Shown one piece after another: positions 8,646 to 46,125 of a DNA stretch of 64,000 nucleotides; within the stretch, counting starts at the first letter, position 1, and each line of letters opens with the position of its first letter. A program made the translations under genes and the position numbers. Location: the NCBI RefSeq assembly GCF_024436055.1, contig NZ_JANFNH010000003.1, positions 186,001 to 250,000 on the forward strand. Reading direction: 5' to 3'. A model generated the notes under the pieces. The model did no database searches and was not told the DNA's origin. It was given only the letters and a program-made list of their open reading frames with translations. This stretch comes from Streptantibioticus rubrisoli (GTDB lineage: Bacteria; Actinomycetota; Actinomycetes; Streptomycetales; Streptomycetaceae).

Positions 8646-8894
8646 TCAGGACGGCGGACCGGCGTACTCCACGGCCGCGTTCAGCAGCCACTCGGCCGGG
8701 TAGGCGGCGCAGCCAGGCCCGAACTTCGAGACGTGCGGCGGGAATTCGGCCTCGTACCCCTCCAACCAGCCGTCGGAGAGCCGGAAGGCCTCGCCCCGCG
8801 GGAGGTCCACGAGACGGCGGTGACAGGGCGCCCGCGAGAGCCAGGTCGAGCCGAGGTTCGTTGCGGATCCCGGTGCATGTCTCGCTTCGCACAA
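8646..8894 (-). pseudogene. Possible remnant of an unidentified gene
   Basis: Part of the 402-base gap between DUF4126 and the permease. An open frame of 82 codons has a protein-like second half (LPRGEAFRLSDGWLEGYEAE, then FPPHVSKFGPGCAAYPAEWL) with a natural mix of Trp, Phe, Tyr and Pro. The first half is composition-biased and lacks a convincing ribosome site. I do not recognise the family. It could be the 3' end of a decayed gene or a real short gene. The rest of the gap shows nothing else clear. Confidence 0.25.
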
Positions 8895-8986
8895 CCTGTG
8901 GTGTGCGTCTCAACAGGTTTGCCGGTCGGGAGCTGGGTACCAGCCACAATCATCGGCCGCCCCCGACGCCGCCCTGGAGTGCCCAT

Positions 8987-10528
8987 ATGCATGATTCCGG
9001 ACAAATGAGACAGACGGTAGCAGTTGCCACCGCGTCGCCGGTTGACGACACCGGTGACCTCGCGCGCTTCGGATACCGCCAGGAACTGGAGCGTTCGCTG
9101 GGCTCGTTCTCCAGCTTCGCGGCGGGCTTCAGCTACATCTCCATCATGACCGGTGTCTTCCAGCTGTTCGGCTTCGGATTCGCCTCCGGCGGGCCCGCGT
9201 TCATCTGGAGCTGGCCGCTGGTCTTCATCGGCCAGGGCGCGGTGGCGCTGTGCTTCGCCGAGGTGGCGGGGCAGTTCCCGCTGGCGGGCGGCGTCTACCA
9301 GTGGTCCAAGAACATCGCCCGGCCCGCGACCGCCTGGATGTCCGGCTGGATCATGACCATCGGCGCGGTGGTCACCGCGGCGGCCGTCGCCGTGGCGTAC
9401 CAGGTGATCCTGCCGCAGGTCTCGCTCGCCTTCCAGATCGTCGGCGGGGCCTCCGACGCGGGCCAGACCGCCACTCCCAACGGCGCGAAGAACGCGATCC
9501 TGCTCGCGCTCGGCCTGGTGGTCTTCACCACTGTCGTCAACATCGTCGGCGTACGGCTGATGGCGAAGATCAACAACCTTGGTGTGGCGGTGGAGTTGAT
9601 CGGCGTCACGTTGCTGATAGTGATGCTGGCGCTGCACATCAAGCGTGGTCCGCAGATCGTCACCCACACCCAGGGCACCGGGGCCGGGCAGTCCTGGGGG
9701 TACCTCGGTGCCTTCCTGGTCGCCTCGATCATGAGCGCCTACGTCTTCTACGGCTTCGACACCGCGGGCTCGCTGGCCGAGGAGACCAGGGAGCCCCGGC
9801 GGCACGCACCGCGCGCCATCCTGCGCGCCCTCACCGCCGCCTTCCTGGCGGGCGGGCTGCTGATGCTGGTCGGGATGATGGCCGTCGGCGACATCAACGC
9901 CAAGGAACTGGGCACGCTCGGCATGCCGTACCTGATCAAGTCCACCCTCGGCAACGGCCTCGGCAACGTCTTCCTGGTCTGCTCCGCCATCGCCATCACC
10001 GTGTGCTGCCTGGCCGTGCAGACCGCCGCGATCCGGCTGCTGTTCGCCATGGCCAGGGACGGGCGGCTGCCGTTCGGCACCGCCATCGCGAGGGTCTCGC
10101 CGCGCTCGAAGACGCCGATCGTCCCCGCGGTGCTCACCGGTGCGCTGACCATCGCGCTGCTGCTGGTCAACATCGGCAACCAGCGGGTCTTCTACATCCT
10201 CACCTCGGTCGCCATCATCCTGTTCTACATCCCGTACCTGATGGTCACCGGCCCCATGCTGCTGCGCCGGCTGCGCGGTCAGTGGCCGCGCCCGGACCAC
10301 GGCCCGTACTTCAACCTGGGCCGCTGGGGCACCCCGGTCAACGTGCTGGCGGTGCTGTACGGGGCCGCCATGACCGTCAACCTCGCCTGGCCGCGCAAGG
10401 AGGTCTACGGAAGCGACCACTGGTACTTCCAGTGGGGTGCCGTCGTCTTCACCGCCGTCATCGTGGCGGTCGGCGCGGGCCTTTACCTCATCCGCCGCGG
10501 GGCGAACAGCGCTCCCACCAGCGACTGA
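8987..10528 (+). CDS. APC-family amino acid/GABA permease
   Basis: 513 residues from the ATG at 8987 (CTGGAG eight bases upstream; another in-frame ATG at 9005). The N-terminus carries DLARFGYRQELERSLGSFSS, the usual entry to amino-acid choline transporter (ACT) family permeases, then SYISIMTGVFQLFGFGFASG. Twelve hydrophobic segments follow, with GGVYQWSKNIARP after helix 3 and FDTAGSLAEETREPRRHAPRA, the conserved loop after helix 6, then TAAIRLLFAMARDGRLPF. Predicted role: uptake of an amino acid, GABA or choline-like substrate. It stands alone between an unidentified remnant and a stem-loop, so no pathway assignment is possible. Confidence 0.9.
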   Translation: MHDSGQMRQTVAVATASPVDDTGDLARFGYRQELERSLGSFSSFAAGFSYISIMTGVFQLFGFGFASGGPAFIWSWPLVFIGQGAVALCFAEVAGQFPLAGGVYQWSKNIARPATAWMSGWIMTIGAVVTAAAVAVAYQVILPQVSLAFQIVGGASDAGQTATPNGAKNAILLALGLVVFTTVVNIVGVRLMAKINNLGVAVELIGVTLLIVMLALHIKRGPQIVTHTQGTGAGQSWGYLGAFLVASIMSAYVFYGFDTAGSLAEETREPRRHAPRAILRALTAAFLAGGLLMLVGMMAVGDINAKELGTLGMPYLIKSTLGNGLGNVFLVCSAIAITVCCLAVQTAAIRLLFAMARDGRLPFGTAIARVSPRSKTPIVPAVLTGALTIALLLVNIGNQRVFYILTSVAIILFYIPYLMVTGPMLLRRLRGQWPRPDHGPYFNLGRWGTPVNVLAVLYGAAMTVNLAWPRKEVYGSDHWYFQWGAVVFTAVIVAVGAGLYLIRRGANSAPTSD

Positions 10529-39084: not shown

Positions 39085-42000
39085 TCACACGCCCACGTCG
39101 CAACAGCAGTCACGGCGCAACTGGCGGCCGACCGCCAGCCATTCGGCATCCGCCGCCGACGCCCGGCGCGCGGCGTGTCCCGGTGTCGTGAAGCTGCCCA
39201 CCAACTCCGCCTGCTCGTAGGGGACTCCGCCGCGCAGCACCGACACCGTGCGCACCAGTGAGTCGAAGTCGGTGAACGGATCGCCGTCGATCACCGTCAG
39301 GTCCGCCAGCTTGCCCTCCTCGACGGTGCCCAACTCCCGTTCCACTCCGAAGACCTGGGCCGGAATGGCGGTCGCGGTGCGCAGGGTCCGCGCCGCCGAC
39401 AGGCCGCAGCGGTGCAGCGCCCGCAGCCCCATGTGCAGATGCAAGCCCACCGGCACCAGCGGGGAGTCGGTGCCCATCGCCACCAGACCGCCACCGTCCA
39501 GCACCCTGCGGTAGGCGCCCACCTCCGTTTCCAGCGCTGCCAGTTGGTCGGCCGTCGCGGGTCGCGCGGCGAGCTGGCGGACCGCCGCGGTGTCCCACGG
39601 GGGCATCAGCACGGTGACCCGGGGGTCGCTGGCGAGCGCCGGATCGTCGCCCACCAGCGGTGCCGCGGTGAACGGCGTGGCGATCATCCGGAAGCCGGGC
39701 GCCGTGTACAGCTCCAGCAGGTCCTCGTAGGAGTGCCCGGTGGCCGTCACGTCATGCCCGAACTCCAGCCGCTGCGTGGCGTGCAGATGGGTCGTCAGGT
39801 CCTGTCCGACCTGGATACCCGGTGTGCACAGATGACTGCCGCTGCGCACCCCGAGCCGCTCGTGCGCGAAGCGCGCCGCCGTCTCCATCACCCAACCGGG
39901 CGCGCGCACATAGGTCTTGACGAAGTCCCAGTCCAGCGCCGCCGCCCGGGCCAGCGACCGGTCGAGCCCCTCCCGGGTGCGGTGCGCCCTGCCCATGCTG
40001 TACGCCACCCGCGAGCCGTCCAGCAGCTCACCGGTGGCCAGCAGCCGCGGCCCGGCCAGCACGCCCGCCGCGACCGCGTCCCGGATCCGGGCCTGCTCGT
40101 AGGCGTAGCCGCCCAGCGATACCGCCGTGGTGATGCCGTAGGCGAGCTGCAGGCAGGTCTGCCGACCGCCGTAGGTCGTCTGCCAGGGATGTGTGTGCGA
40201 ATCCCACAGCCCGGGTGTGACGGTGTACGAGGAGGCGTCGATCCGCCGCAGCGCGGGCCGCCCGGCGCGGTGCGGTTCCACGGCGGTGATCCGCCCGCCG
40301 CGCACCACCACGTCGACGTCATGCCGGACCTGCTCGCCGGTGCCGTCCCACAACTGCCCGGCGTGCACCACGGTGTCGGCGGGCGCCGGGCGCCGGTAGT
40401 CGAGCGGCACGCGGATCGTACGGGCGGTGCCGCCCGCGGCGTCGATCAGCCGCAGGGTGCCCGACGACAGGTACAGCAGGCTGCGCGAGTCCCCGGACCA
40501 CGACGGATGGTCCGCGGCCTCCTCGGTGAGCTGCCGTGGCGCCCCGTCCGGGGTGCCGTCCGGACGTACCGGCAGCAGCCACAGCGCGGACTCCGCGATG
40601 ACCGCCATCCAACGGCCGTCCGGTGACCAGACCGGGCCCGAGTCATGGCGGTCGGAGATGGACACATGCGGCGCCACGGCGTGCAGCCGGGCGGTGCCGT
40701 CCGTGGCGTCCACCACCCGGATCAGGTTGTAGCCCTCACGGAACCGCTGGTTGAGCCGGTTGCGGTCGCAGAACGCCACATAGCGGCCGTCCGGCGACCA
40801 GCTCGGCCGACCCGGCAGGCCGCCACCGCCCAGCGGCGCGGCGAGTACCCGCTCGGTGCCCTTGGCCAGATCGCGCACCACCAGGTTGCCGGACATGTCC
40901 ACACAGGCCAGCCGCTCGCCGTCCGGCGAGAGCGCCGGATACACCCGGCCGCCAGAGGCCAGCACGGTCTCCTCGCCCGAGGCGAGGTCACGGCGGCGCA
41001 CCGCGAACAGCCCGTCCCGGTCGTCGGCGTACAGCAGGGAACGCCCGTCCCGCGCCCAGACCGGGCCCAGCAGGTACCGGGTGGGCTCGGTGCTGACGAT
41101 CCGGCGCGGTCTGCCGCCCGAAGTGCCGCACAGCCACAGCGAGTTGAGCGCCGCGAAGGCCACCTGCCGGCCGTCGGGGGACAGCGCGGGCAGATGCACC
41201 CCGCGCACCGGGCGTACGCCGGAGCCGTCCAGGTCGTACTTCTTCACCCGGTAGCGCGGCCGGTCCACGGGCAGCGCGGCGGCGAACGGGATCCGCCGGG
41301 CGGCGGCGGGCCGCTGCGGGCACAGCAGCCGGAACTGTCCGTCCACGGTGACCAGCAACTCGTCGTCGGACGTCCAGCGCGGTGGGGCGGGCGCCAGGTC
41401 CCCGTCTATCGGCACCGGCGCGCCGTCCACCACCAGCGTGCAGGAGGCGGCGGGCGCGGGGGTGGTGCGCAGATAGGCGAGCCGTCCGCGAGGTGAGACG
41501 GCCGGGACCATCAACTGGACGCCGGGGGTCGGGTCGGTGTGCGTCACGGTGACCGGTCCCGAGCCGTCGGCCGGGACGGAGGCGATGGTGCGGGCGTCCA
41601 GCGCGGTGCCGCCGGGCGCGCCGGAGGCCACCGGCCGGGCGCGGACGAACCGCACCTCGCGGCCGTCCGGCGACCAGGTCGGGTCGAAGTCCTCCCAGGG
41701 GCCGTCCTGCAGCGGACCCTGCTGGCCAGGCAGTCCGGTGATCCGGGTCAGCCGTCCGGTCGCCACGTCGAGCAGCCAGATCCGGTACGGGCTGCCCGCC
41801 GTTGGCCCTTCGTAGTCCCCGCCGCGCTCGGAGGCGAAGGCGATCCGGGTGCCGTCCGGCGACCAGGACGGGCCGCGGTCGTCCCAGGGGCCGTCGGTGC
41901 GCTGTCTCAGGCCCGAGCCGTCGGGGCGCAGCGTCCAGATGTGGAAGCCGCCGCCCCGGTAGGCGCACACGGCCAGCAGTTCGCCGTCGGGGGAGAAGAC

Positions 42001-42318
42001 CGGGCGGGTCGGCTCCAGGTCGGGCGTGCTGATCGGTACCGCACGGCCGCCGCCGGACGGCAGCGACCACAGCACGTTCTGCACCTCGGCGATGATCCGG
42101 TCGCCAGCGGGGGACAAGGTGGCCGAGCCGTTGGTGCCGGAGGTGAGGGAGAGCGTGGTGCGCCCGGTGGCGCCGTCGGCGGTGGGCGGTGCGGCGAGGG
42201 CCTCACCCGGTAGGCCGAGTACGGCTGAGGCGGCCGCGGCTGACGCGGCCGCCTGTAAGAAACCGCGCCGGGAGAGCGCGGAACCGGTGGTGTCGGAAGG
42301 GTCCTGAACGGTGTCCAA
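39085..42318 (-). CDS. Tat-exported TolB-like propeller / amidohydrolase fusion
   Basis: 1077 residues. The twin-arginine signal LSRRGFLQAAASAAAASAVL is at residues 15-34 with a cleavage region near GEALAAPP. Residues ~60-640 contain many PD40/WD40-like blades (FSPDGELLAVCAYRGGGFHI, WSPDGTRIAFASERGG, LSPDGRQVAFAALNSLW, WSPDGRYVAFCDRNRLN). Residues ~660-1077 are an amidohydrolase: VVRGGRITAVEPH, TPGLWDSHTHPW (metal HxH near residue 708), TGHSYEDLLELY, MGTDSPLVPVGLHLHMGLRA (metal Asp), and LGTVEEGKLADLTVIDGDPF. This is the family of exported amidohydrolases of the imidazolonepropionase type; a peptide-derived or cyclic amide substrate is likely. A possible remnant start context lies in the 789-base upstream gap. 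Confidence 0.93.
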   Translation of the reverse strand: MDTVQDPSDTTGSALSRRGFLQAAASAAAASAVLGLPGEALAAPPTADGATGRTTLSLTSGTNGSATLSPAGDRIIAEVQNVLWSLPSGGGRAVPISTPDLEPTRPVFSPDGELLAVCAYRGGGFHIWTLRPDGSGLRQRTDGPWDDRGPSWSPDGTRIAFASERGGDYEGPTAGSPYRIWLLDVATGRLTRITGLPGQQGPLQDGPWEDFDPTWSPDGREVRFVRARPVASGAPGGTALDARTIASVPADGSGPVTVTHTDPTPGVQLMVPAVSPRGRLAYLRTTPAPAASCTLVVDGAPVPIDGDLAPAPPRWTSDDELLVTVDGQFRLLCPQRPAAARRIPFAAALPVDRPRYRVKKYDLDGSGVRPVRGVHLPALSPDGRQVAFAALNSLWLCGTSGGRPRRIVSTEPTRYLLGPVWARDGRSLLYADDRDGLFAVRRRDLASGEETVLASGGRVYPALSPDGERLACVDMSGNLVVRDLAKGTERVLAAPLGGGGLPGRPSWSPDGRYVAFCDRNRLNQRFREGYNLIRVVDATDGTARLHAVAPHVSISDRHDSGPVWSPDGRWMAVIAESALWLLPVRPDGTPDGAPRQLTEEAADHPSWSGDSRSLLYLSSGTLRLIDAAGGTARTIRVPLDYRRPAPADTVVHAGQLWDGTGEQVRHDVDVVVRGGRITAVEPHRAGRPALRRIDASSYTVTPGLWDSHTHPWQTTYGGRQTCLQLAYGITTAVSLGGYAYEQARIRDAVAAGVLAGPRLLATGELLDGSRVAYSMGRAHRTREGLDRSLARAAALDWDFVKTYVRAPGWVMETAARFAHERLGVRSGSHLCTPGIQVGQDLTTHLHATQRLEFGHDVTATGHSYEDLLELYTAPGFRMIATPFTAAPLVGDDPALASDPRVTVLMPPWDTAAVRQLAARPATADQLAALETEVGAYRRVLDGGGLVAMGTDSPLVPVGLHLHMGLRALHRCGLSAARTLRTATAIPAQVFGVERELGTVEEGKLADLTVIDGDPFTDFDSLVRTVSVLRGGVPYEQAELVGSFTTPGHAARRASAADAEWLAVGRQLRRDCCCDVGV

Positions 42319-42431
42319 GAAGGCTCCCTGGCTTGTTGGTTGAGGGGGAGTTCGATGTTGCGCGCTGCCGATCGTGGCACAGCCCGGGCGCCAAGCAGGC
42401 CGGGCGAGGTCATCTGAGGTTGGGCACCACC

Positions 42432-42496
42432 CCGAAGGGCCGCGGGGCTGTGTTTATGTGCGGCTCCGCCGCGTGGGCGCGACCAGCCACAACGAC
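42432..42496 (-). repeat. Dispersed intergenic repeat, copy 1
   Basis: About 59 bases, from CCGAAGGG to CCAGCCAC, match the reverse complement of 57750-57808 with three mismatches. It contains a GTGCGGCT...CCGCGTGG-type internal dyad. Both copies are intergenic. Such GCGCGGGGC / GTGGCTGG elements recur widely in streptomycete genomes and are not coding. Confidence 0.75.
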
Positions 42497-42583
42497 GCTG
42501 CGGACGATCGACGGCATAGCGCCGCACGCCCAGCGGAGCGCTTAGACATACCGGCCGTCCGGAGTCAAGGTTCGGTCAAGTAG

Positions 42584-42614
42584 TTGCGCGCATGTGCAAG
42601 AAGAAGGCTAGACT
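42584..42614 (+). promoter_or_regulatory. Candidate promoter of the Mg2+ transporter leader
   Basis: TTGCGC (42584-42589) and TAGACT (42609-42614) are separated by 19 bases and lie about 20 bases before the M-box. TAGACT is a good streptomycete −10 element; the −35 and spacing are weaker. Confidence 0.4.
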
Positions 42615-42632
42615 TCAACCGATGTTGCAAGA

Positions 42633-42792
42633 GGCACCTCGTTCGGTGAGGCGTCTGCACGGACACAGGCCACTGATCCCACCCGTCGAGAGACGCTCCG
42701 GATCAGGACAGGTCTCCCCGAGTTAAGGGGTGACCCCAAGTGGCTTCCCGCTCTTGGCGGGACACGCCGTGGAGTGCCAAAGCTCTGACGAG
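42633..42792 (+). ncRNA. M-box (ykoK-type) Mg2+ riboswitch
   Basis: The leader has the diagnostic M-box blocks in order: GTTCGGTGAGGC (42641-42652), GTCGAGAGACGC (42685-42696), a helix TGATCC (42674-42679)/GGATCA (42700-42705), ACAGG just after, and the closing strand GTGCCAAAGCTCTGACGAG (42774-42792). GGCAC (42633-42637) pairs with GTGCC (42774-42778) as the closing helix. M-box RNAs fold with bound Mg2+ and switch off Mg2+ transporter genes. Here the target is the Nramp-family gene at 43108, about 315 bases downstream. Boundaries are approximate. Confidence 0.85.
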
Positions 42793-42880
42793 TTGGGGTG
42801 AATCAGCCGTGTTCGGGCTGGTCCGCTCCTTGCCGAGTCCGTTTGGCGCACAGCGCCCCGGCCGGGAGGAGGCGAGAGAC

Positions 42881-42958
42881 ATGGATTGCAGTAGCAGTAG
42901 TCCGGGCCATAGTCAGCCCCGCATCCGCTTGTCCTCGTTGACCTCCGGCACGCGGTAA
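42881..42958 (+). CDS. 25-residue leader ORF between M-box and transporter
   Basis: ATG at 42881 follows GGGAGGAGG with ideal spacing; the frame reads MDCSSSSPGHSQPRIRLSSL plus five residues and stops at TAA (42956-42958), a codon rare in this genome. It is serine-rich with PG and QPRIR. It lies downstream of the riboswitch and 149 bases before the transporter start. By analogy with the Pro-codon leader mgtL upstream of mgtA in enterics, translation of it may add a second control layer. Expression is inferred from the ribosome site only. Confidence 0.45.
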   Translation: MDCSSSSPGHSQPRIRLSSLTSGTR

Positions 42959-43107
42959 CCACCTTCCCTGCGCGCACCACAGCACCACAGATCGCGGTCC
43001 CGTACGGCCTAGAGCCGCTCGGCCGCGGTTCGGCGTGCGCTCGCAGGGGGGATTGCTGCTGCGTGCCCCCTAGCAAAGCCCCCTGACGGGGAACTGGGAG
43101 GCCCGTA

Positions 43108-44760
43108 ATGACCACCATCACCGAGACCGCCGCCGCACAGACCCCGCGCGCCGCTGTGCTCGACGACGCGCACGTCGGCGACATCCGCGGCGCGCTCGGC
43201 ACCATCCGGCTGGACGACACCGCGCCGCGGTTGGGTCTGTCGGCGAAGCTGAAGACCCTGCTGGCGATCGTCGGCCCCGGCCTGATCGTGATGGTCGGCG
43301 ACAACGACGCCGGTGCCTTCACCACCTACGGCCAGGCCGGGCAGAACTACGGCACCAAGCTGCTGTGGACGCTGCTGCTGCTCATCCCCGTGCTGTACGT
43401 CAACCAGGAGATGGTGCTGCGTCTGGGGGCGGTCACCGGGGTCGGGCACGCCCGGCTGATCCTGGAGCGGTTCGGGAAGTTCTGGGGCGCCTTCTCGGTC
43501 ATCGACCTGTTCCTGCTCAACGCGCTCACCTTGGTGACCGAGTTCATCGGCATCACGCTGGCGGCCGGGTACCTGGGGTTGCCGAAGGCGGCGTCGGTGG
43601 TGCTGGCGGCGGCGATCATCATCGCGTCGGCGTTCACCGGTTCGTTCCGCCGGTTCGAGCGGATCTGCGTCTTCCTGTGCGCCGGATCGCTGCTGCTGGT
43701 GCCCGTCTACTTCATGGTCCACCCGGCCACCTCGCAGATGGCCCATGACTTCGTCGCGCCCACCATGCCCGGTGGTGCGGGGCAGTTGGCGACCGTGATG
43801 CTGCTGATCATCAGCATCGTCGGCACCACCGTCGCCCCCTGGCAGCTGTTCTTCCAGCAGTCGTACGTCATCGACAAGCGGATCACCCCGCGGTTCATGA
43901 AGTACGAGAAGGCCGACCTGTGGATCGGCATCGCCATCGTCGTCATCGGTGCCGCCGCCATGATGGGCTTCACCGCCGCCGCGTTCGCCGGGACCAAGGG
44001 CTTCGGGAACTTCACCGACGCGGCCGGGGTGGCCCACGGACTGGCCGCTGCGAGCGGCAAGTTGACCGGCGTGCTGTACGCCATCGCGCTGCTGGACGCC
44101 TCCATCATCGGCGCGTTCGCCGTCTCCCTGTCGACCGCGTACGCCGTCGGGGACGTGTTCGGGATGAACCACTCGCTGCACCGCGGGGTCAAGGGCGCCA
44201 AGGGCTTCTACGCCGTCTACGCCGGACTGGTGGCCGCGGCCGCCGCGATCGTGCTGATCCCGGGCTCGCCGCTGGGGCTGCTGACCGAGGGGGTGCAGAC
44301 CCTCGCCGGTGTGCTGCTGCCGTCCGCGTCGGTCTTCCTGCTGCTGCTGTGCAACGACAAGGCCGTCCTCGGCCCCTGGGTGAACGGGGCCAAGACCAAC
44401 GCGTTCACCTCGGCCGTGGTCGGCGTGCTGGTGATGCTCTCGATCATCCTCACCGCCTCGGTGCTCTTCCCGGACATCACCGCGGGCGCGATCATGGACA
44501 TCATGGCCGCCTGTGGAGTGGCCGGGGTGCTCGCCATCGGCTACGCCGAGGTGCGCCGCCGGCGCAAGGGCTGGGCGCGCGCCGGTGCGGGCATCGACCG
44601 CACCGGGCGGGACGAGTGGCGGATGCCGCCGTTGGAGACGCTGGCCAAGCCGGTGATGTCCACCGGCTACAAGATCGGCATGGGCGCGCTCCGCTCGTAC
44701 CTGCTGATCGCGATGGTCCTGGTGGTCGTCAAGATCGTCGAGGTGGCGCTCGGCCACTGA
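43108..44760 (+). CDS. Nramp-related divalent cation (probably Mg2+) transporter
   Basis: 550 residues, ATG at 43108 with GGGAGG upstream. Eleven to twelve helices of the SLC11/LeuT fold. In the metal site, helix 1 reads VGDNDAGAFT (residues 63-72), where MntH has DPGN; helix 6 reads IVGTTVAPWQLFF (239-245 = GTTVAPW), where Mn/Fe Nramps have ATVMPH. Loss of the methionine and histidine is the hallmark of Nramp-related magnesium transporters (NRMTs) described in Clostridium and Eggerthella. The M-box upstream independently points to Mg2+. The C-terminus extends ~60 residues with a basic RRRRKGWARAG loop. It should not be named mntH. It is convergent with the ABC transporter. Confidence 0.9.
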   Translation: MTTITETAAAQTPRAAVLDDAHVGDIRGALGTIRLDDTAPRLGLSAKLKTLLAIVGPGLIVMVGDNDAGAFTTYGQAGQNYGTKLLWTLLLLIPVLYVNQEMVLRLGAVTGVGHARLILERFGKFWGAFSVIDLFLLNALTLVTEFIGITLAAGYLGLPKAASVVLAAAIIIASAFTGSFRRFERICVFLCAGSLLLVPVYFMVHPATSQMAHDFVAPTMPGGAGQLATVMLLIISIVGTTVAPWQLFFQQSYVIDKRITPRFMKYEKADLWIGIAIVVIGAAAMMGFTAAAFAGTKGFGNFTDAAGVAHGLAAASGKLTGVLYAIALLDASIIGAFAVSLSTAYAVGDVFGMNHSLHRGVKGAKGFYAVYAGLVAAAAAIVLIPGSPLGLLTEGVQTLAGVLLPSASVFLLLLCNDKAVLGPWVNGAKTNAFTSAVVGVLVMLSIILTASVLFPDITAGAIMDIMAACGVAGVLAIGYAEVRRRRKGWARAGAGIDRTGRDEWRMPPLETLAKPVMSTGYKIGMGALRSYLLIAMVLVVVKIVEVALGH

Positions 44761-44772
44761 GGCGCCGGGGCG

Positions 44773-46125
44773 TCACAACGCGGCCTCCGCGCCCGGTTCC
44801 AGGGTGAGGAGGCCGTCGTCCGCGTCGTAGTCGAACAGTTCGCCGTACCGGCCCCAGTCGACCGCGATGTCGAGCTGGCGCCGGGCCTCGTCGACGGAGT
44901 ACCTGCGGCGCAGCAGATCGAGGAAGAAGCCCTCACGCAACCGCTGGCCCTCGGTCGCCGCCAGCGCCTGCACGATGGCCCGCACCAGCGGCGCGCGCCG
45001 CGCCGCGTGCCGGGCGAACAACTGCTTGCTGGTGAGGATGTCGGCGGCGGCGAACTCCCGGCCCTGCTCGGTCAGTGTGATCCGCGGCCCCGCCGTGCGG
45101 GCAAGACCCAGCAGCACGGCGGCGTCCACCAGCGGCAGCAGGTCGTCGATCTCAAAGCTCAACTCGTCGGCCAGCTCCGCCAGACCGTCCTCACCGCCCC
45201 GCGCCACCAGGATCTCCAGCAGCCCGGCCAGCCCGCCCACGCTCACCTCGGGCAGCGGTACCGCGATCGGGGTGGCCACCGACCTCGGCGCCCCGGCGGG
45301 CGCCTGCGCCGCGGCGGCGGCCGCCTGCGCGGCCTCCTCCCGGCCGGTGAGGATCCCGTACACCGTGTCGACCAGGGCCTCGAACTGCGCGGTGCGGCGG
45401 TCCCGCGGCCGGGGCAGGCCGACCGTCAACTCGGCCCTGATCCGGCCCGGGTTGGAGGACAGCACCAGGATCCGGTCGGCGAGCAGCACCGCCTCCTCGA
45501 TGTTGTGGGTGACGATCAGCACCGACCGCACCGGGGCCTCGTGCCCCTCCCACAGGCCGACGATCTCCCCCCGCAGGTTCTCCGCGGTCAGCACGTCGAG
45601 CGCGGAGAACGGCTCGTCCATGAACAACGCGTCCGGCTCCACCACCAACGCCCGTGCCACGCCCACCCGTTGGCGCATGCCGCCGGACAGCTCCTTGGGG
45701 TAGGCGCCCTCGAAACCGTCCAGGCCGATCAGGTCGATCGCCCTCAGCGCCCGCTCCCTGCGCTCCTCCTCGGCGACCCCCCGGGCCTGCAGGCTCAGCT
45801 CCACGTTCTGCTGCACCGTCAGCCACGGCAGCAGCGCGAAGGACTGGAAGACCATCGCCACCCCCGGATTGGTGGCGGTCAGCGGCGTGCCGCGGTACGA
45901 GACGGTGCCCGCCGAGGGGGCGATCAGCCCGGCGAGGCAGCGCAGCAGCGTGGACTTGCCGGAGCCGGACTTGCCGAGCAGCGCCACGATCTCGCCCTCG
46001 TCCACCCGCATGCTGATCGCGTCCAGCACCGGCAGCTCCCGGCCGTCGGGCGTGGTGAACGTCTTCGTCACGGCTTCGGCCCGGACGATCGTGGTGCCGG
46101 GCTCCGGGCTGGGGGTGGTGGTCAT
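44773..46125 (-). CDS. NitT/TauT-type ABC transporter ATPase with AAA-associated domain
   Basis: 450 residues. ATPase: Walker A GKSGSGKST (51-59), Q-loop VFQSFALLPWLTV, signature LSGGMRQRVG, Walker B ALFMDEPFSALD and H-loop VTHNIEEA. Beyond residue 260, after an Ala-rich linker, comes a winged-helix C-terminal domain (VGGLAGLLEILVARGGEDGL, ELSFEIDDLLPLVDAAVLLG and AVDWGRYGELFDYDADDGLL), the ABC-associated domain PF09821-like found in this subgroup. Related to nitrate/sulfonate/bicarbonate importers. It lies 13 bases downstream of its permease; no substrate-binding protein is encoded nearby. Confidence 0.92.
   Translation of the reverse strand: MTTTPSPEPGTTIVRAEAVTKTFTTPDGRELPVLDAISMRVDEGEIVALLGKSGSGKSTLLRCLAGLIAPSAGTVSYRGTPLTATNPGVAMVFQSFALLPWLTVQQNVELSLQARGVAEEERRERALRAIDLIGLDGFEGAYPKELSGGMRQRVGVARALVVEPDALFMDEPFSALDVLTAENLRGEIVGLWEGHEAPVRSVLIVTHNIEEAVLLADRILVLSSNPGRIRAELTVGLPRPRDRRTAQFEALVDTVYGILTGREEAAQAAAAAAQAPAGAPRSVATPIAVPLPEVSVGGLAGLLEILVARGGEDGLAELADELSFEIDDLLPLVDAAVLLGLARTAGPRITLTEQGREFAAADILTSKQLFARHAARRAPLVRAIVQALAATEGQRLREGFFLDLLRRRYSVDEARRQLDIAVDWGRYGELFDYDADDGLLTLEPGAEAAL

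Follow-up and report, generated by a model that had tools for sequence, protein, structure and literature searches.

An M-box leader with a conserved upstream reading frame before an NRMT-type Nramp gene in Streptantibioticus rubrisoli

The M-box and the transporter gene that follows it

The DNA analysed here (the window) is a stretch of 64,000 nucleotides (nt) from Streptantibioticus rubrisoli, in which an M-box (ykoK leader) aptamer, a short upstream open reading frame (uORF) with its own Shine-Dalgarno (SD) sequence and a gene for an Nramp-related divalent metal transporter follow one another on the forward strand (Table 1). A first-pass annotation had proposed an M-box riboswitch controlling an Nramp protein with a Mg2+-type metal site, and both of the observations on which it relied hold. 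A covariance-model scan gave a full-length match to RF00380 at 134.7 bits (gathering threshold 44 bits), the single Rfam match above gathering in the whole window; position 42633, where that annotation began, lies 2 nt inside the aptamer. The transporter gene starts 303 nt after the end of the aptamer, with GGGAGG ending 6 nt 5' of its start codon, and its product carries GDNDAGAF in helix 1 (residues 64-71) and GTTVAPW in helix 6 (residues 239-245) instead of the canonical motifs. The association of an M-box with an Nramp-type gene bearing these motifs is confirmed and far beyond chance, and the M-box is probably a Mg2+-responsive gene control element here.

Table 1. Features of the leader and transporter gene (window coordinates), with related loci in other records
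Feature	Position	Strand	Basis or remark
M-box (ykoK leader) aptamer, RF00380	42631-42804	+	cmscan, Rfam 15; E 3.8e-30, model positions 1-169 of 169
GGGGUG, 3' strand of aptamer closing helix P1, proposed anti-anti-SD	42795-42800	+	Paired in Rfam consensus; complementary to CGCUCC at 42824-42829
Proposed upstream anti-SD, CGCUCCUUGCCG	42824-42835	+	Complementarities in leader folds
SD region of the uORF, CCGGGAGGAGGCGAG	42862-42876	+	Conserved in leaders
uORF, MDCSSSSPGHSQPRIRLSSLTSGTR, 25 codons plus TAA	42881-42958	+	SD-led; stop TAA at 42956-42958
C-rich, G-poor stretch, candidate Rho loading region	42900-43007	+	Percentile of C minus G
3' part of uORF complementary to its own SD region (CUCG...CCUCCGG)	42934-42948	+	Consensus fold, recoding test
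Nramp-related (NRMT-type) divalent metal transporter gene, 550 residues	43108-44760	+	ATG start; PF01566
M-box-led small-protein loci	L009 from about 3332; L010 from about 7518; L011 about 8889-9146; also L019, L020, L021, L023	L011 minus	
Proteobacterial relatives without M-box	L068, L072, L075, L078, L080, L081, L084, L086, L087, L090, L091, L093, L095, L097-L099, L101-L103		

The transporter matches the Pfam family Nramp (PF01566) at 254.3 bits. Its closest solved relative by sequence is the Mg2+ transporter EleNRMT (7qia, E 1.5e-46), followed by a Bacteroides Nramp (1.3e-17) and by MntH, NRAT and human chains, none of them stronger than 1.3e-8. An AlphaFold2 model built from 27 aligned relatives (mean predicted local distance difference test score 73.4, predicted template-modelling score 0.77) also had EleNRMT as its top match in a fold search of the PDB (7qia/7qji, template-modelling score 0.85-0.86 by target length, E 1.8e-14); since other Nramps come next in that search, the fold alone does not separate substrates.

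We used FastTree for a phylogeny of 134 proteins over 411 columns and IQ-TREE for 68 of the same proteins, both sets being without clostridial NrmT sequences and without the A. capsulatum protein discussed below. In the FastTree phylogeny one group of 76 tips (support 0.999) contains the window protein, EleNRMT and each of the 28 M-box-led Nramps included, and proteins with DPGN and AxxMPH, together with NRAT, form a separate 30-member group (support 1.0). In IQ-TREE the canonical group is recovered with a Shimodaira-Hasegawa-like approximate likelihood ratio (SH-aLRT) of 100, and a 40-row group holding EleNRMT and the window protein with 96; the latter also includes three DPAG-TTLA proteins that FastTree placed just outside. 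Within this group the 22-row branch of the window (99) stands beside the 18-row branch of EleNRMT (90), indicating that the window clade is sister to the EleNRMT clade and not inside it. Both trees thus join the protein to EleNRMT and leave canonical MntH outside, and the two outcomes that had been named as counting against the original proposal, no M-box and placement inside MntH, are both contradicted.

Canonical MntH identity is rejected on several grounds: the protein has neither DPGN nor AxxMPH, it lies outside the MntH clade, and the three NCBIfam MntH/Nramp models that match it all stay under their cut-offs (78.9 against 430, 50 against 272.5 and 40.1 against 50 bits). These cut-offs also speak against the expectation in the first-pass annotation that automatic pipelines would call the gene mntH, and among the best 20 of 56 plasmid-borne relatives the 12 that are annotated all read 'Nramp/NRAMP family divalent metal transporter', the other 8 having no feature listed. 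The underlying worry about manganese mislabelling is nevertheless fair in spirit, because M-box-led mycobacterial genes have been labelled manganese or manganese/iron transporters: one paper places M-boxes before a 'manganese/iron transporter' of M. avium (PMC3774663), and another describes a mycobacterial M-box class of 'Mn2+-type' (PMC12810186). The manganese label would be doubtful for genes of the type of L152 and L153, the nearest M-box-led relatives outside the window's clade (mycobacterial by inference), since both fall in the NRMT group and carry DAGG-TTVA.

The proposed Mg2+-type site stands for helix 6 and departs from the published pattern in helix 1. The EleNRMT site consists of Asp55 and Gly58 of helix 1, Thr224 and an alanine of helix 6 and Gln379 of helix 10, and the published signature of the NRMT clade is DxxG-TxxA/T (passages of PMC8806188). 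The corresponding residues in the window protein are D67-A-G-A70, T240-T-V-A243, E145 (helix 3) and Q397, so that D, T, A, the helix-3 E and Q are retained and Ala70 replaces Gly58. The canonical helix-6 methionine is absent, as had been noted for NRMTs, and a tryptophan occupies the position of the canonical first histidine. Across 83 relatives (the window, the second copy in its own genome, one from the genus and 80 named loci) helix 6 reads GTT[VI]A in all 83, matching the TxxA/T half of the signature. Helix 1 reads DAGA in 82 and DAGG in one, and this departure from DxxG is a point against reading the protein as a Mg2+ transporter. DAGA looks derived, as L152 and L153 just outside the clade have DAGG, and we file the transporter as a variant clade because its site is DxxA-TxxA. 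Given the small size of alanine, which contributes no ligand, the DxxA protein could still plausibly form a wide, hydrated Mg2+ site, and this natural variant offers a test case for the selectivity model.

The predicted substrate is Mg2+, perhaps also Mn2+. A transporter serving mainly as a Mn2+ (or Fe2+) importer, with the M-box as a general divalent-metal sensor or reading Mg2+ for some other reason, seems to us unlikely, although several facts lend themselves to it. The genome has three Nramp matches, of which two are full-length genes led by M-boxes and one is a C-terminal fragment, and none is a canonical DPGN MntH, so that some Mn2+ carrier would be needed; EleNRMT itself transports Mn2+ as well as Mg2+ (passages of PMC8806188); and an A. 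capsulatum relative rescued Mn2+ uptake and was judged a likely Mn2+ transporter by Shin et al. (parts of PMC4072509), which also weighs against the Mg2+ assignment. According to the same parts of that paper, however, the A. capsulatum gene has no M-box. The replaced methionine and histidine of helix 6 argue against a transition-metal importer, and two ZnuA-family binding proteins are encoded in the genome for other metals. Furthermore, the genome has one CorA and no match to PF01769, the MgtE membrane domain used for the search, which makes a regulated Mg2+ importer a plausible need.

Two exceptions in motif are found beside the window's NRMT clade: the Nramps L014 (G002:C61:63169-64275, same genus) and L203 (G098:C30) carry DAGS and AVIMPW, with the helix-6 methionine back, and form a long branch next to the window's clade (FastTree 0.971, SH-aLRT 99). 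They possibly represent a return to transition-metal transport.

The locus is flanked by two minus-strand reading frames, 39085-42318 and 44773-46125, which by eye are amidohydrolase-like and ABC ATPase-like, respectively. In the NrmT operon type of Shin et al. a gene for an MgtE N-domain protein adjoins the transporter gene; no reading frame for one lies between leader and transporter here.

The uORF and its complementarities

The uORF begins 77 nt after the aptamer, behind GGGAGGAGG. We searched for comparable frames with a pattern of our own for the SD and limits on length (12-50 codons) and on the start (40-130 nt after the aptamer), using 30 dinucleotide shuffles as control. An SD-led uORF was found in 54 of 61 actinobacterial M-box leaders, starting 56-103 nt after the aptamer, whereas the shuffled leaders averaged 0.87 and never exceeded 3 of the 61. 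Applied to the 300 nt 5' of the gene in relatives lacking an M-box, the test was positive in 8 of 35. The leaders are mutually related, and the counts are not independent events. The set comprises 47 leaders of the window's clade (the window, two from the genome search and 44 named relatives) and 14 others, of which seven are from the genus, six are mycobacterial (two of them leading NRMT-type genes) and one leads a CorA-like gene. The seven misses are L032, L064, L073, L077, L083, the minus-strand leader of L034 and one mycobacterial leader; the mycobacterial leader has a GTG start and a distant SD, and L032, by eye, has its SD further from the start codon. In the minus-strand leader of L034 the uORF sequence is recognisable and, by eye, has no in-frame start codon. 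The actinobacterial leaders L066 and L079 carry a second small frame (MSITITI...) between uORF and transporter, some 240 nt behind the M-box.

Of the 47 leaders from the window's clade, 34 encode a similar uORF peptide, recognised by PG[HR], and these were used for codon analyses. Their conserved start and end share one frame despite insertions in the middle, and in 33 of 34 the last sense codon is one for Arg. The fractions of non-majority nucleotides at codon positions 1, 2 and 3 are 0.202, 0.144 and 0.172 in the uORF, compared with 0.102, 0.071 and 0.226 for the transporter genes at these 34 loci, and serine is encoded by AGT in 94 of 214 cases, against 5 of 157 in five window reading frames. 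The kept frame on the one hand, and the third positions that are no freer together with the AGT excess on the other, suggest that frame and RNA are both constrained. Simple peptide conservation as the sole constraint is countered by the third codon positions. We also think it improbable that the uORF works only through its peptide, as a translated leader with an effect on the transporter or on another target, and that the RNA pairings are side effects: the conserved ends in one frame would fit, but third positions as conserved as first, the AGT excess and peptides that differ widely between groups would not. The uORF peptide had no Pfam or NCBIfam match, as expected for 25 residues. We infer that the uORF is translated.

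The leader may form a set of pairings with the proposed anti-SD segment (Table 1), in which CGCUCC pairs with the 3' strand of P1, CUCCUU can pair with the uORF SD, and UUGCCG pairs with CGGUAA at the uORF end. A consensus fold of 28 leaders, out of 42 with a uORF found by script (the other 14, mostly more divergent, were excluded beforehand), has GGGGUG paired with CGCUCC around a small hairpin, UUGCCG with CGGUAA, and the SD region with CUCG...CCUCCGG of the 3' half of the uORF. Over its 41 pairs, 97.2% of the cells are standard pairs, compared with 36-52% when the partners are slid by 1-3 columns, a comparison that favours the structure because it was derived from the same alignment. Synonymous recoding weakens the duplex of SD and uORF from a mean of -27.7 to -21.5 kcal/mol (34 loci).

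We then modelled how open the SD is in 33 of the 34 leaders (L053 was dropped, as the strand pattern was not found in it). When the leader is folded up to the uORF start, mean openness is 0.19 without and 0.41 with the 3' strand of P1, and it returns to 0.19 when that strand is replaced by AACAAC. It is higher with the strand in 29 of the 33 leaders, by more than 0.2 in 13, and rises from 0.15 to 0.70 in the window; the rise exceeds 0.1 in 9 of 13 other M-box leaders. Once the full uORF is present, openness is low whichever state is modelled (0.165 and 0.179). The folds thus give no support to a plain equilibrium switch, and it is this result that leads us to propose a timing element. The modelled pattern is the one expected of a co-transcriptional switch in which a free P1 strand, at low Mg2+, would open the SD for as long as the 3' half of the uORF has yet to be made.

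From a point inside the uORF onwards the leader is rich in C and poor in G: 78-nt windows starting at 42900-42930 lie at the 95.7-99.2 percentile of the window for C minus G (99.2 at 42910-42987), and the stretch reaches at least the 90th percentile in 31 of 42 leaders. It fits a candidate Rho site that translation would cover. The M-box might instead act via an intrinsic terminator, as in Bacillus ykoK, with no part for the uORF. Most M-boxes are said to work in this manner (parts of PMC4072509), but no intrinsic terminator was found between aptamer and gene: the sole terminator-like site in 42300-43150 (42430-42447) lies upstream of the aptamer, and the GC-rich hairpins 5' of the transporter have no T run after them. 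We regard this alternative as very unlikely.

The second half of the leader (42959-43107) is conserved in Streptomycetaceae too, with a CCCC/GGGG hairpin just 5' of the SD of the transporter. In 21 leaders folded from uORF stop to gene the sequence is conserved and the consensus structure weak (covariation term -0.16).

M-boxes and Nramp genes in other genomes

A search model (R1) built from 18 M-boxes, partly at loci later searched with it and among them 7 of the 80 named relatives, matched upstream of the gene at 149 bits or more in 44 of the 80, the weak remainder reaching at most 25.1 bits. By taxon, the M-box is present in 44 of 60 testable Actinomycetota and in 0 of 19 Pseudomonadota; one locus has too short a flank. 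The Rfam model, applied to 19 relatives, found an M-box at the gene in the same 7 used for R1 and in none of the other 12, the remaining 37 positive relatives being identified by R1 (at least 149 bits). Five Streptomycetaceae relatives have no M-box by R1, and a permissive Rfam scan found none either. The 19 proteobacterial relatives, all without M-box, are 63-69% identical to the window protein, and relatives at E 1e-20 occur in 56 plasmid records, with query coverage of 80% or more in 39; this suggests transfer.

In a sample of the phylum, 23 M-boxes were found in 15 of 198 genomes, the search having stricter filters by which weak matches are lost. In 13 of the 15 genomes an Nramp gene lies 3' of an M-box, on the same strand and no more than about 2.2 kb away. 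Of the 23 M-boxes 14 are placed in this way, a count that leaves out the more distant member of the tandem pair on C30; the other two genomes have no Nramp match. Thirty further Nramp loci of the sample (26 DPGN-type, one partial and three GPGT-type) have no M-box of the same search nearby.

The genome of the window holds four M-boxes besides the one described above, and neither these nor the uORF had figured in the first-pass annotation. Two of the five lead full-length NRMT-type genes, the window's and a second copy at C30:4195-5838, 88% identical and likewise absent from that annotation. The other three precede small proteins. Such M-box-led proteins (84-98 residues, Table 1) fall into two types (MRIELTWPR... 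and M[PT]VLTLRRT...), and a separate uORF precedes each protein; scans of one representative per type gave no Pfam or NCBIfam match. One mycobacterial M-box-led protein matches the NCBIfam family 'Mbox_reg_Rv1535'.

The third Nramp frame of the genome, on L009 (G000:C30, 1216-2082), encodes the C-terminal part only (query 327-502, 46% identity) despite 1.3 kb of sequence upstream, and two tandem M-boxes lie 0.8 and 1.6 kb downstream of it. C-terminal parts of the transporter are also found in another genome of the genus, in L016 (end of G002:C63) and L018 (start of G002:C96), 97% and 64% identical; located at two contig ends, these copies were probably split by the assembly, leaving their leaders unreadable. 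In Actinacidiphila, an M-box of 110.6 bits (L034, 1491-1668, minus strand) leads a reading frame that is CorA-like by eye and adjoins an M-box-led NRMT gene.

A proposed magnesium-starvation unit and its known relatives

Taken as a whole, we consider it probable that the locus is a Mg2+-starvation import unit in which the M-box gates translation of the uORF, and this in turn decides, through Rho, whether an NRMT-type Mg2+ importer is made. At low Mg2+, helix P1 of the aptamer would not be closed, and its free last strand GGGGUG would pair with the anti-SD CGCUCC, leaving the uORF SD open during transcription. A ribosome loading on the uORF would then cover the C-rich stretch that Rho would otherwise bind, and transcription would reach the transporter gene, whose product, a member of the Nramp superfamily, would import Mg2+ and perhaps also Mn2+, as EleNRMT does. 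At high Mg2+, P1 would close, the anti-SD would take the SD, the uORF would stay untranslated and the transcript would end early. Should the 3' half of the uORF be transcribed before a ribosome has loaded, it would likewise pair with the SD and lock it.

Several observations on the leaders weigh against this mechanism. Double changes are seen in only 6 of the consensus pairs, all in the helix of the P1 strand and anti-SD hairpin, and the SD-uORF and UUGCCG-CGGUAA helices show none; these two therefore rest on conserved complementarity. The recoding test gives 0.07 for the window and 0.05 or less in 19 of the 34 related loci. SD openness does not rise in 4 of the 33 leaders, falling by more than 0.2 in L047, and rises by less than 0.1 in 4 of the 13 other leaders. 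Finally, uORFs are dissimilar in many actinobacteria that do not belong to the streptomycete group, and in some of these the C-rich stretch is missing.

A tentative and rather speculative extension is that actinobacterial M-boxes in general are timed translation gates, with an SD open briefly before the 3' half of the uORF locks it, a uORF that is both Rho shield and lock, and the mycobacterial uORF2 as one branch of this scheme.

The core of the unit, an M-box before an NRMT-like gene, is already known, and the DxxA clade and the uORF platform make the present locus a variant of it. M-box-led Nramp-related Mg2+ transporters were published from Clostridium in 2014 by Shin et al. (parts of PMC4072509). 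These NrmT/NRMT systems, as far as described in parts of PMC4072509 and PMC8806188, share with the window the leader M-box, the lack of a helix-6 methionine and a TxxA followed by PW, and the window protein groups with EleNRMT and the other M-box-led Nramps of our set. The window protein differs in having DxxA and not DxxG in helix 1, in its sister position to the EleNRMT clade and in about 100 extra C-terminal residues with two more predicted helices. Unlike NrmT loci, the window has no gene between leader and transporter, a convergent reading frame after the transporter, and a uORF platform with no intrinsic terminator found. With canonical MntH/DMT1 Nramps the protein shares the Nramp fold, the helix-1 aspartate and the helix-3 glutamate, but it lacks DPGN and AxxMPH and lies on a separate branch. 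A group of actinobacterial and proteobacterial genes at present annotated as 'NRAMP family divalent metal transporter' can therefore be seen as candidate magnesium importers, and so can M-box-led mycobacterial genes of NRMT type.

The closest parallel to the leader is the M-box of pe20/rv1535 in Mycobacterium tuberculosis, reported as the first translational M-box, linked to Rho and with a uORF2 (Rv1805A) that passages of the report (PMC12810186) call mycobacteria-specific. It shares with the window the 3' strand of P1, the anti-SD and the uORF SD in the same order, here recognised by complementarity and modelled accessibility, as well as a C-rich stretch and the placement of the uORF start, which lies 77 nt behind the aptamer in the window. 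In contrast, the M-box of the window leads a transporter and not PE/PPE genes, the uORF peptide differs, and the 3' half of the uORF forms a second anti-SD, of which those passages describe none for M. tuberculosis. We found no description of uORF-bearing M-box leaders outside mycobacteria in the open-licence literature. The same order of elements occurs in Streptomycetaceae, Streptosporangiaceae and a member of the Pseudonocardiaceae, with a different peptide. M. tuberculosis therefore seems to share its uORF-based M-box control with many harmless actinobacteria, in which the mechanism is easy to dissect.

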